Source: Candidatus Saccharibacteria bacterium HGW-Saccharibacteria-1 | GTDB lineage: Bacteria > Patescibacteriota > Saccharimonadia > Saccharimonadales > Saccharimonadaceae | DNA: 64,000 nucleotides | Assembly (NCBI GenBank): GCA_002839415.1 | Contig: PGXZ01000003.1 | Coordinates: 1-64,000 of the forward strand | Direction: 5' to 3' | In this document: positions 32,043-35,993 of the stretch, one piece after another | How positions within the stretch are numbered: the first letter of the stretch is position 1 | Layout of the letters: every line of letters starts with the position of its first letter | The notes under the pieces: generated by a model | Databases searched by the model: none | Seen by the model: only the letters and a program-made list of their open reading frames with translations | Told to the model about the DNA's origin: nothing | Translations under genes and position numbers: made by a program

Positions 32043-33341
32043 TCATTTATACAAAGTTCGACTAATGACGATAGAGTCGCCGCGTTCGTATAACCTATCC
32101 AGGTAGTCAAGGTACGTGCCTGGTGTAATTATTCCATTTACTTTTAAAATATCTATCCCAGATTTACCTACTAATTGGTCGGCTAGCTTAACGCAGTTTG
32201 TGCCCATTGCATAGTAAGTTTTAAATGGATTGCCGAGTTTGAATTTGAAAAACTTTGCATTTGAATCGTTATAAAGCTGACTAGATGTATCTTTGTAGTC
32301 GGTTGGCTTGCCTTTGATTAACCCACTCTTGCATTGCTCTGCAAGTGGCATCCATTTGATCATGTCTTTCTGAAGTTCTTTCAGCTTACTTATTACGGCT
32401 TTTTTGTGTTCTGGTGTCAGCGATAACCCGTAGGCCATTAAAATCTTCTTTTCTACACTCAGCGCTTGTTTAATGTGAAATCTGTTATCCATTTCGACCA
32501 GTACCCCGTCGGCAAAAAATCCGCCAAATTTCCAGGTTGAATCGTCATAGTTGCCATAGCTATAAACGGTGCCTTCTATACTGATATCGACGTGACCCAT
32601 GCCCGTAACGAGGCCTTCGCGCGTATGTATGAATATAACTAAATCTTCTGTTTGTTTTTTAGATTGATTCGGTAATAATAACAAAGCTTCGGGCTCTTCT
32701 TGGACAAGTTTGTTAATGTCTTTTAATAGTTTAATTGGTAAAAACGCTGCAATTACGACCGGCATTGATATTCGGATTCGTTTTTTTACTTTTTGTGCGC
32801 CGTCATTTGAGCTCATTAAACTTGTCAGTGCATCAATAAAAATATTGAAAGCAAATAGCAACAAATAAGAACCAAGTAAAGTACTAAATAATCTGTCTTG
32901 GCGGCTGAAAAAAGCCATTTCTATACCTAGAACTATATAGATTAGAGCCGATATTAGCGTTCCGACCCAAGACGCGCCATCGTACTTTAACTTTATACTG
33001 TTCAGTAATATAAATAGACCGATTATTATCCCCAGCATTCCGGCTGTAAAGCTAAAAGCGCCTTTTACGATTTGTGGGGCGATAAAGAGCGCTGCTCCAC
33101 CTAATGTACACAATAACCCGATCAATAGGTGTTTGAGCTTGTTCTCTGTAGTTTTAATCATAAGTGAAATGATATACATTACGCCAATAACAAATACCAA
33201 CCCCACAACAATTAGTTCGATTGCAACCCAAGCAAGCTTGATATTGAAGATTAACATTATTCCAGTGATAAATAACGCGACTGCCATAATTAACCATATT
33301 ACTGGCGCAGTATTTTTTAGTGATAAAACGGAATATTTCAT
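32043..33341 (-). CDS. HdeD-like membrane protein fused to a putative permuted papain-like domain
   Basis: 432 aa. The first 210 residues hold about six membrane helices in the tandem arrangement of DUF308/HdeD proteins. The C-terminal part (from about residue 230) contains GMGHVDISIEGTVYSYGNYD and, about 140 residues later, MGTNCVKLADQLV. A His in the first strand and a Cys at a helix start, in this order, are typical of circularly permuted NlpC/P60 (papain-like) enzymes such as LRAT and YiiX. So a lipid acyl or peptide hydrolase at the membrane is a reasonable inference, not proven. The ATG lies 8 nt after a near-consensus promoter. Confidence 0.65.
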   Translation of the reverse strand: MKYSVLSLKNTAPVIWLIMAVALFITGIMLIFNIKLAWVAIELIVVGLVFVIGVMYIISLMIKTTENKLKHLLIGLLCTLGGAALFIAPQIVKGAFSFTAGMLGIIIGLFILLNSIKLKYDGASWVGTLISALIYIVLGIEMAFFSRQDRLFSTLLGSYLLLFAFNIFIDALTSLMSSNDGAQKVKKRIRISMPVVIAAFLPIKLLKDINKLVQEEPEALLLLPNQSKKQTEDLVIFIHTREGLVTGMGHVDISIEGTVYSYGNYDDSTWKFGGFFADGVLVEMDNRFHIKQALSVEKKILMAYGLSLTPEHKKAVISKLKELQKDMIKWMPLAEQCKSGLIKGKPTDYKDTSSQLYNDSNAKFFKFKLGNPFKTYYAMGTNCVKLADQLVGKSGIDILKVNGIITPGTYLDYLDRLYERGDSIVISRTLYK

Positions 33342-33456: not shown

Positions 33457-34215
33457 TTGTTTAGTAATTCGTTGGTTACCTTTCTGTGGTTGTTTGTCAT
33501 TTATGCCTTTTTAGGTTGGTGTCTTGAAGTTATTTATGCAACCGTCCATACTGGAAAGTTCGTAAATCGTGGTTTTTTGAACGGGCCTTATTGCCCTATT
33601 TATGGGGTTGGCATGATTGTAATTATATTGTTACTCGAGCCATTTAAAGTCAATATTCCAATATTTTTTGTCGGAGCGGTAATACTAACTACAGCCCTGG
33701 AGTTAATCACAGGCTTTGTGTTGGAACGAATTTTTAACCAAAAATGGTGGGACTATGCTGAAAATCCGTTTAATTTGGGTGGTTATGTCTGCCTTGGGCA
33801 GTCGCTAGTTTGGGGAGTTGCCAGCATATTTGTAATTTATATACTGCAACCTTTCGTTGATGATTTTATCAGTTTGATGTCTGGGCGAGTTGGCATTGCT
33901 GTGTTGATATTTATTCTGGCTGCATTTTTGGCGGATGTATTCGTTACTGTTATGGTTCTTGCCAAGGTAAAGCAATACAGCCGTGTTTTGGATGAAGTTG
34001 GTGATAGGATAAAGTCATTATCAAATTCAATGGGTAAAAATATATCTGACGGTGCAAGAAGTGCTATGAAACTTGGCGACAAAAACAAGCAAGAGCTGGA
34101 TAACCTACGAGAAAAATATCAATCAATTGTTGATAAAAATATCTTAGGCTACAAGCGATTAACAAAAGCCTTCCCTAGTCTGCATCCAATAAAGAGTAAG
34201 CGAATTAAGAAGTAA
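33457..34215 (+). CDS. CmpB-family putative ABC-transporter permease-like membrane protein
   Basis: 252 aa, five to six membrane helices in the first 175 residues, then a cytoplasmic coiled-coil tail. The signature FLGWCLEVIYATVHTGKFVN, RGFLNGPYCPIYGVG and ERIFNQKWWDY matches the ABC_trans_CmpB family, common in Firmicutes and CPR, with no proven function. TTG start at 33457 with GGAG 7 nt upstream. The last 11 nt overlap the convergent 34205-35791 gene. Confidence 0.8.
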   Translation: MFSNSLVTFLWLFVIYAFLGWCLEVIYATVHTGKFVNRGFLNGPYCPIYGVGMIVIILLLEPFKVNIPIFFVGAVILTTALELITGFVLERIFNQKWWDYAENPFNLGGYVCLGQSLVWGVASIFVIYILQPFVDDFISLMSGRVGIAVLIFILAAFLADVFVTVMVLAKVKQYSRVLDEVGDRIKSLSNSMGKNISDGARSAMKLGDKNKQELDNLREKYQSIVDKNILGYKRLTKAFPSLHPIKSKRIKK

Positions 34216-35791
34216 TTTTAGCCAACTCTTTGGTAGCTTTTTCATATCGAGTTAAAAATGAACTATCGCCATCTTCGATACGTTTTTTGTATTCATTTTG
34301 ACGAGCGGTTAATTTGCTGACTCTTTTGTTTTTATCTTTTCTTTCATTTTCACTTCTTTGAGCGTCAACTTTGATTTTATTTTGTTGTTTGTATATTTGC
34401 TCGGGGTTTTTGCCTTTTTGAAAAATAATATGACAACCAACGCAAACCTTACAGCCTCCGACTTTGGTTTTGTTTGGCAGCCAGCTAATTTCGCCACGAC
34501 TGGGGCAATTACCTATTCGACAAACGTCAAAACTTTCTTGTCCAAAGTTTTTGAGTCTATTCATCGAGCCAAAGGCAAGCGATAATATGCCTTCGTCTGA
34601 CAACCCTGTACTGTCGCCTTCTTCGCCACCATTGAATTCAGGGCAGCTAAGACTTTCATAATTAAGGCCATTTGCGGTCGCCATTTGACCAAAATGGGAT
34701 GCGGTGTCACGAGTTGCTTGGCTGTTATTGATATTTTTGGTTAGCTCTGCAATTGTTTCTTTGTCGGCATTATCGACTGAACTCGCGATTGTTTTGATGA
34801 CGAGGTTAAGTTGATTTCTGATTGATTTGGTGGTCAACTTTTGACCTACTGTTGTATTGATGTCCAATTTTAACTCTTTGTAAAACTTCGATAATTCTGA
34901 TGTCATTACGCCATCGCTATTTTCAATTAGTTTAATGGCGTCCAGATATATGTTTGTAACCCCGGATAGTTGCTTTACTTTTTCCAGACCATTAAATATT
35001 TCGCTATGCTTTTTGATTTCAATTCCATGCCTAAATTTCTTGTTGGTTTTTTCATATAAAAGTTGATCATAAACGCCAACGTAATATTCGATTGCTTCGT
35101 CTATATCTTCTAAATCAGGCTCATTTATCTCATAGCAGTTCCGTAGGATATCGATATTGTTTTTATTGTCGCTACTAATACCAAATTCTGCACGCATATC
35201 GTTAAATTGTTGAACGCTAGAATTATGTAATGTAAAAAAACCACCTTCTATATTTTTTTCATCTAATTTACGAAATATACGATTAAATGCATATTCTTCC
35301 TTTGCTCCGATTGGTGGCGATTCGACAACAAAATTTGCTCCGATTGATGCGTCAACAAACCATTCAACAAGCTTTTCAACTTCTTCCATTTCAACTTGGG
35401 CTCTAGCTAATTCAATTGCCAGTTCTGGGTGGCTGATGCACACTCTTTGCCATGTTTCTAGGTTGTTTTTAGTCATCGTTCGCATCGACACATTGTCATT
35501 GACCGAAATAAAATCAGAATTATCAAAATTAAATTGTAATTTGTTTATAATAAACGCTTCTTTGTTTTTTAAACGCTCCGAGGTGGTTGTTTCGATGTCC
35601 TCTTTAATGCCAGCCAGTGATTCGTCGCCACGTTTAATATAGTCACACAGATGAATGACTGGGTCGTTGATGCTAATTTCGCACCTTTCGATCGCTAGAC
35701 TGCCCAGCTCGACGGTCCATCTGTCTCTGCTTTTTTCCAAGGTTGAGCGCTTGGTCTCGCGCGCTTCATTGAAACTTACAATTTCACCCAT
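34205..35791 (-). CDS. Unknown 528-aa protein under a cobalamin-type riboswitch, with a C-terminal Cys cluster
   Basis: Soluble, largely helical and acidic protein with no membrane segment. Near residues 420-455 it has CRIGNC, about 20 residues, then CKVCVGC, a probable zinc (or other metal) site of four to five Cys. A basic tail with RVSKLTARQNEYKKR follows. No family was recognised. ATG at 35791 has GGGGA upstream, and a cobalamin riboswitch fills the whole leader, so expression should fall when B12 is abundant. Genes under such control usually serve B12 import, B12-independent isoenzymes or cobalt handling. This protein resembles none of these. Confidence 0.75.
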   Translation of the reverse strand: MGEIVSFNEARETKRSTLEKSRDRWTVELGSLAIERCEISINDPVIHLCDYIKRGDESLAGIKEDIETTTSERLKNKEAFIINKLQFNFDNSDFISVNDNVSMRTMTKNNLETWQRVCISHPELAIELARAQVEMEEVEKLVEWFVDASIGANFVVESPPIGAKEEYAFNRIFRKLDEKNIEGGFFTLHNSSVQQFNDMRAEFGISSDNKNNIDILRNCYEINEPDLEDIDEAIEYYVGVYDQLLYEKTNKKFRHGIEIKKHSEIFNGLEKVKQLSGVTNIYLDAIKLIENSDGVMTSELSKFYKELKLDINTTVGQKLTTKSIRNQLNLVIKTIASSVDNADKETIAELTKNINNSQATRDTASHFGQMATANGLNYESLSCPEFNGGEEGDSTGLSDEGILSLAFGSMNRLKNFGQESFDVCRIGNCPSRGEISWLPNKTKVGGCKVCVGCHIIFQKGKNPEQIYKQQNKIKVDAQRSENERKDKNKRVSKLTARQNEYKKRIEDGDSSFLTRYEKATKELAKITS

Positions 35792-35801
35792 TTACTAAAA
35801 T

Positions 35802-35958
35802 ATCCCCTACTCTCAATCGAGCAGAGGTCTAAAAGCTATCAAATAGATAAAGACTACTCCTGCTCGGGAGATTTAAGCTGTATCGGACTTGATATAAATA
35901 TCTTACCGTTGCGGCACAGTTCCGGATTTTCACCGGATTCCAGCATTTGATTTGTTAA
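35802..35958 (-). promoter_or_regulatory. Cobalamin (B12) riboswitch
   Basis: On the minus strand GGAATCCGGTGAAAATCC (35942-35925), GAACTGTGCCGCAACGGTAAG and AAGTCCGATACAGC reproduce the B12-box core: GGGAA, GGTGAAAATCC, CnG, CCGC-AACnGTAA, and AGnCnG-AnAC. A GCTG/CAGC helix closes it. Downstream, CGAGCAGGAG (about 35852) can pair with CTCTGCTCG, and CTCCC can pair with the GGGGA Shine-Dalgarno sequence, giving a translational on/off choice. The family is an established ligand-binding RNA. The exact boundaries are approximate. Confidence 0.85.
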
Positions 35959-35965
35959 TGATTTA

Positions 35966-35993
35966 ATTATAACTAATTGATGAATAATGTCCA
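35966..35993 (-). promoter_or_regulatory. Promoter of the riboswitch transcript
   Basis: Minus-strand TGGACA (35993-35988), 16-nt spacer, TATAAT (35971-35966). Confidence 0.75.

Follow-up and report, generated by a model that had tools for sequence, protein, structure and literature searches.

The window analyzed here is the whole 64,000-nucleotide stretch at positions 1 to 64,000 of contig PGXZ01000003.1 of Candidatus Saccharibacteria bacterium HGW-Saccharibacteria-1. A leader on its minus strand precedes a gene for a 528-aa protein, and the following features were assigned.

35993-35988 and 35971-35966, minus strand: sigma-70-type promoter TGGACA-N16-TATAAT, read from the sequence.
35981-35859, minus strand: cobalamin riboswitch aptamer, RF00174, with the conserved core at ~35944-35876 (cmscan and covariation).
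35857..35870, minus strand: conserved hairpin CTCC-CGAGCA-GGAG, 3' of the aptamer (kept in relatives; fold energies).
35797..35827, minus strand: terminator-like hairpin CCTCTGCTCGATTGAGAGTAGGGG, followed by ATATTTT (fold energy, shuffles, and relatives).
34205..35791, minus strand: ORF of the 528-aa riboswitch-linked family member (family profile E value of 1.6e-105 in its own genome).

The initial annotation had placed a cobalamin riboswitch upstream of this gene. A cmscan search of the whole window detected RF00174 with a score of 34.6 bits relative to a gathering score of 31.5 bits (E = 4.3e-5), in agreement with that assignment, and no other Rfam family exceeded its threshold in the window. 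The B12-box core quoted previously, GGTGAAAATCC...GCCGCAACGGTAAG, was present, and the promoter was found with the 16-nucleotide spacing that had been reported for it. A genome-wide cmscan of the host (30 contigs totaling 1.10 Mb, with a completeness of 98.9%) detected this RF00174 match only, bearing out the suggestion that a reduced genome has kept one such RNA. Among 88 non-redundant relatives of the RNA, compensatory changes involving several pair types were present in P3, P5, P6, and the P6 extension. The relatives also scored with the RF01482 and RF01689 models; many fell below the RF00174 cutoff, and the passing scores were only slightly above it. In their core, B12-box region, and covarying P3, P5, and P6, these RNAs resemble the cobalamin riboswitch clan (RF00174, RF01482, and RF01689), but they add a recurrent post-aptamer CGAGCA hairpin common to CPR phyla and control a gene family without known identity. 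The element CTCCCGAGCAGGAG or a near variant was located 3' of the aptamer in nearly all relatives. In cobalamin riboswitches, loop L5 kisses the loop of a 3' hairpin; here, the 3' hairpin with its CGAGCA loop was conserved, but a clear complement in L5 was not seen on inspection by eye only. By computation, the leader truly belongs to the cobalamin riboswitch clan, while binding of cobalamin and an effect on expression are inferred.

The start of the 528-aa ORF lies 68 nucleotides past the end of the Rfam match. Within this interval, the terminator-like hairpin had a fold energy of -15 kcal/mol (z, -4.7), none of 200 shuffles was equally stable, and the hairpin with its ATATTTT ended a few nucleotides upstream of the ATG. 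Similar hairpins were present immediately upstream of the start codon in many relatives. The CGAGCAGG segment of the post-aptamer hairpin can pair with the 5' arm of the terminator (35825-35818), and the hairpin, ATATTTT, and alternative pairing together have the layout of an OFF switch of the terminator type. Control at the level of translation is still possible, as the terminator-like hairpin holds AGGGG, which may be a ribosome site.

The 528-aa protein had been described as unrecognized, and it has no family match in Pfam, NCBIfam, PHROGs, or PADLOC. The Cys motifs noted near its C terminus were located at residues 424 to 429 (CRIGNC) and 447 to 453 (CKVCVGC). AlphaFold models of this protein (mean pLDDT, 79.5; pTM, 0.63) and of a 386-aa family member, termed L096 in the structural comparison (mean pLDDT, 77.7; pTM, 0.71), agreed in showing a domain of mixed alpha/beta structure that leads into helices, then a linker of low confidence and the Cys cluster. 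The layout of the window protein was as follows.

Residues ~44-237: PAS/GAF-like domain.
Residues ~230-373: helical region.
C424, C429, C447, C450, and C453: zinc-ribbon-like Cys cluster.
After the cluster: helical tail.

The protein had also been characterized as soluble and helical. No signal peptide or transmembrane segment was evident in it and hydropathy was low over most of the family, consistent with the first term, but the mixed alpha/beta model is not purely helical. The predicted structure had no clear known fold: Foldseek searches against the PDB yielded no match below an E value of 0.001 for either model, and PDB sequences searched with the profile of the family gave nothing above chance level. 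A structural second look returned weak PAS/GAF-type matches, plus matches for the C-terminal helices, for both models. The PAS/GAF similarity reached a Z of 5.3 for the window model (residues 80 to 237) and 4.5 for L096, and this likeness of the modeled alpha/beta domain may reflect just a shared arrangement. Pfam searches of the window protein detected no RNR barrel domain (PF02867 or PF13597), no B12-binding domain (PF02310), and no DUF4430 (PF14478); likewise, neither model contained a ten-stranded barrel. By eye, the Cys cluster looks like the C-terminal zinc ribbon of NrdJ, and it was the only part aligned when the family and NrdJ profiles were compared. Homology between the two was pursued but left unproven, since the hhalign match was weak (E values of 0.003 to 0.004, probability of 8 to 11%) and HMMER gave no significant match.

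Homologues were collected from a starting set of 37 RNA-controlled proteins, joined by blastp, from 42 RNA sites. The family is very divergent, with a mean column identity of 17% in a 34-sequence alignment in which R130, C383, C424, and C453 were invariant; complete members range from ~250 aa (L217) to ~630 aa, and synonymous sites were saturated in all pairs but one in the dN/dS analysis. A family profile search detected members in 77 of 199 relatives. The RNA was located upstream of 75 of the 76 members examined (hand count; the member in G175 was left out). Where the strict RNA scan was silent, direct reading of the upstream DNA still revealed the core, as GCCGCAAC or, in certain members, GCCGCTAC, in all cases but one. 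The one exception, L177, was in G056, which is also the single NrdA-only genome holding the family. The RNA and the gene are linked nearly one to one by this computation, and two outcomes that would have refuted the initial proposal, lack of a significant covariance-model match and homologues that never carry the RNA, were not observed. Seven genomes of the window's genus encode the protein, and these were the same seven with the RNA before a family gene; an eighth RNA-bearing genome, G021, had the RNA before nrdD.

A sample of 380 genomes of the phylum contributed three marginal profile matches from outside the order. One of these sits among ribosomal-protein genes and was rejected as a likely chance match. 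The other two, L217 and L218, were behind the same RNA, and L218 could be aligned with family members across 303 columns (E value of 1.4e-11 by hhalign). The RNA-controlled proteins of L070, L074, L112, L121, L123, L126, L129, L130, and L050 were not recognizable as members by family-profile comparison. The sister species G022 has its copy of the gene broken into two ORFs that overlap, of 271 aa and ~270 aa (L059:5630-6445 and downstream), due to a frameshift or an assembly error. A gene for a NadD-like nucleotidyltransferase immediately follows the family gene across much of the order, the gene ends sometimes overlapping, which suggests a single operon. We considered and rejected a mobile element made up of the RNA and its gene: viral contigs contained no match in a pattern scan, and the recurrence of the same NadD-like or antiporter-like neighbor genes in much of the order also disfavors it.

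The gene content of the host and its relatives provided a link to ribonucleotide reduction. The only RNR detected in the host was the class II enzyme NrdJ (TIGR02504, 651 bits versus 400), and CobA and NrdR are also encoded. No B12-binding-domain protein (PF02310) was found in the host genome, and hence NrdJ, with no other B12-binding protein detected beside it, is the likely consumer of B12. DUF4430 was not detected in this genome; there was no DUF6580 match either, but the control was also silent, so that absence of the latter cannot be concluded. When RNR matches were sorted by length and score, the family was present in ~71 of 111 NrdJ-like genomes as opposed to 1 of the 46 genomes with NrdA only (P = 2e-14 by Fisher test; hand counts, uncorrected for relatedness). 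DUF4430 and the family rarely occurred together among genomes with NrdJ: 3 had both, 15 had DUF4430 only, and 68 had the family only (P = 1e-5; same reservations). Within the window's genus, 7 genomes had the family and 10 had DUF4430 beside nrdJ, with none having both; in species without the family, the DUF4430 gene adjoins nrdJ, DUF6580, and cobA.

A pattern scan for the RNA and its 3' element detected 48 loci across CPR phyla. At sites where the family gene is not next, the same RNA precedes nrdA in G101 and nrdD in G055; nrdDG lies behind it in G055 and in G021, a sister species that has NrdD and its activase. DUF4430 (PF14478) transcobalamin-like proteins and DUF6580 also occur behind this RNA in other CPR lineages, DUF4430 being the next gene after it in several of them, and both occur beside nrdJ in sister species. 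The DUF4430 domain is shared with transcobalamins (PMC4350170). These DUF4430 proteins are small and apparently exported, whereas the window protein has no sequence relation to them. Family genes were found in the orders RNA-nrdA-nrdB-RNA-family (G101), RNA-family-nrdR-nrdJ-nrdJ (L116, QKAA01000077.1), and RNA-pduO-family (L218). The regulon is one of ribonucleotide reduction, or of the B12 dependence of DNA synthesis, comprising uptake, adenosylation, and a B12-free RNR backup, and the family belongs to it.

Other arrangements were observed around this RNA. The adjoining nrdJ genes of L116 encode proteins of 715 and 648 aa. Gottesmanbacteria loci had the orders nrdR-nrdJ-pduO-RNA (L120 and L126) and pduO-RNA-large unknown protein-DUF4430-like-DUF6580 (L123), so as to form a compact B12/RNR island. 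In L129, L130 (Doudnabacteria), and L210/G153, the RNA is followed by genes for different large, unknown proteins (590 to 680 aa where complete); in L130 and G153, a gene for a Clp-like AAA+ ATPase comes right after that of the unknown protein.

NrdR-box-like sites were sought in 102 RNA leaders, using a threshold of at least 12 of 16 matches to ACACTATATATAGTGT, which we take to be the NrdR-box consensus. Sites were detected in 35 leaders, compared to 1.6 expected from shuffles, and second boxes were clustered at 30 to 33 bp from the first. Known NrdR boxes are 15 to 16 bp apart (PMC12051234), equivalent to 31 to 32 bp from start to start and, hence, matching the observed distances. Tandem sites of this type also precede nrdJ in several of the same genomes, a feature shared with the NrdR regulon. 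No NrdR box was found before the RNA of the window itself, where the best match was 10 of 16. These computations associate the family with NrdJ, with NrdR boxes, and with genes for adenosyltransferases.

The initial annotation had inferred an important B12- or corrinoid-linked task. The linkage to the RNA in 75 of 76 members and the ties to a B12-dependent RNR support such a task, without settling the choice offered between sparing, salvage, and handling. Our tentative proposal, for which we claim something less than an even case, is that the gene is repressed by cobalamin and that its product is a cytosolic accessory of the class II RNR module (NrdJ, CobA/PduO, and NrdR), made when B12 is scarce. 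Bound B12 would favor the terminator hairpin adjoining the ATG and so switch the gene off, while without B12 the CGAGCAGG segment would pair with the 5' arm of the terminator and transcription would proceed. Protein made under B12 scarcity would enable deoxyribonucleotide synthesis to go on, most likely by working with NrdJ itself to deliver, retain, or renew scarce adenosylcobalamin. We infer, rather than show, which way the switch acts, its reliance on a terminator, and all of the biochemistry, including the choice between a protein that delivers or renews cobalamin on NrdJ, one that bypasses NrdJ, and one that restrains it. We know of no loading, reactivating, or alternative-radical factor for class II RNR. 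A narrower version of the accessory proposal, in which a CPR-specific, B12-repressed partner of this enzyme lets NrdJ work or be bypassed at near-zero adenosylcobalamin, perhaps by loading cobalamin, by reactivating the enzyme, or by serving as an alternative radical source, is conceivable but doubtful.

Several observations bear on whether the protein instead replaces NrdJ function. The presence of the same RNA before nrdAB (G101) and nrdDG (G055 and G021), the NrdR boxes at 35 of 102 leaders, and the B12 riboswitch of Streptomyces class Ia nrdABS (PMC4991794) would all fit a B12-independent bypass, in which the protein itself, as a new radical source or small reductase, supplies what NrdJ gets from B12 and substitutes for NrdAB or NrdDG. 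We regard this as unlikely, given the size of the family (~250 to ~630 aa) with no RNR-domain match and no ten-stranded barrel in the models, and its coexistence with NrdJ rather than occurrence in its place. The family is almost never found without NrdJ, unlike NrdA or NrdD, which favors a helper over a replacement. The accessory proposal is itself weakened by the lack of any sequence or structural match indicating cobalamin or NrdJ binding, by the faintness of the likeness between the Cys cluster and the NrdJ zinc ribbon, and by the missing NrdR box at the window's leader, and the alternation of the family with DUF4430 uptake genes could mean an uptake role instead. The protein would then be a functional alternative to the DUF4430/DUF6580 pair in B12 acquisition, as the presence of the same RNA before DUF4430 in several CPR lineages and the rarity of genomes with both genes (P = 1e-5, uncorrected for relatedness; 7 versus 10 and none with both in the genus) might suggest. 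DUF4430 proteins begin with a hydrophobic segment, but the absence of an evident secretion signal or transmembrane segment in the window protein and the mostly low hydropathy of the family argue against a direct part in uptake and render this quite improbable.

There is similarly little to recommend a role in regulation or quality control, with a PAS/GAF-like sensor and zinc ribbon restraining or sequestering apo-NrdJ, passing it to a protease, or regulating dNTP genes at low B12. PAS and GAF domains recurred in the structural second look for both models and a Clp-like AAA+ ATPase gene follows a different RNA-controlled protein in G153 and L130, but the Z was at most 5.3, possibly just a common arrangement, and the AAA+ genes do not adjoin members of the window-protein family. 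Finally, scores barely over the cutoff, with many relatives below it, could denote a cobalamin-like fold sensing another ligand and a protein unrelated to B12; this is very hard to reconcile with the same RNA preceding DUF4430, nrdA, nrdD, and pduO in hosts that carry NrdJ and CobA.

CPR bacteria must obtain B12 from others, yet many rely on an enzyme that needs B12 to make all of their DNA precursors. The family represents a recurrent answer to this weakness, without a name in the libraries searched, and the protein probably helps these bacteria to cope with B12 shortage. The regulatory logic is already known from Streptomyces coelicolor, whose genome also encodes class II NrdJ and where class Ia nrdABS is under the control of a B12 riboswitch (PMC4991794, citing Borovok 2006), tying B12 supply to RNR choice as here. 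The target in Streptomyces is the class Ia RNR itself, whereas the protein targeted here lacks RNR domains; G101, G055, and G021 exhibit the classical arrangement. The protein family and its CPR-wide linkage to the RNA appear to be undescribed in the libraries and literature searched. Action of the protein on NrdJ, if real, would make it to our knowledge the first dedicated helper of a class II RNR. These findings raise a testable question concerning DNA replication of a parasite-like cell once B12 runs out.

A variant of the RNA was located in G180 (L050:6610-7893) before a gene for a 428-aa protein that weakly matched the RNR all-alpha domain and TauD, with a DUF6829 protein gene 3' of it. 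In the window, an ORF of 432 aa lies near the family gene (32043-33341, minus strand); it contains hydrophobic stretches, is weakly similar to DUF308, and has its own transcription.
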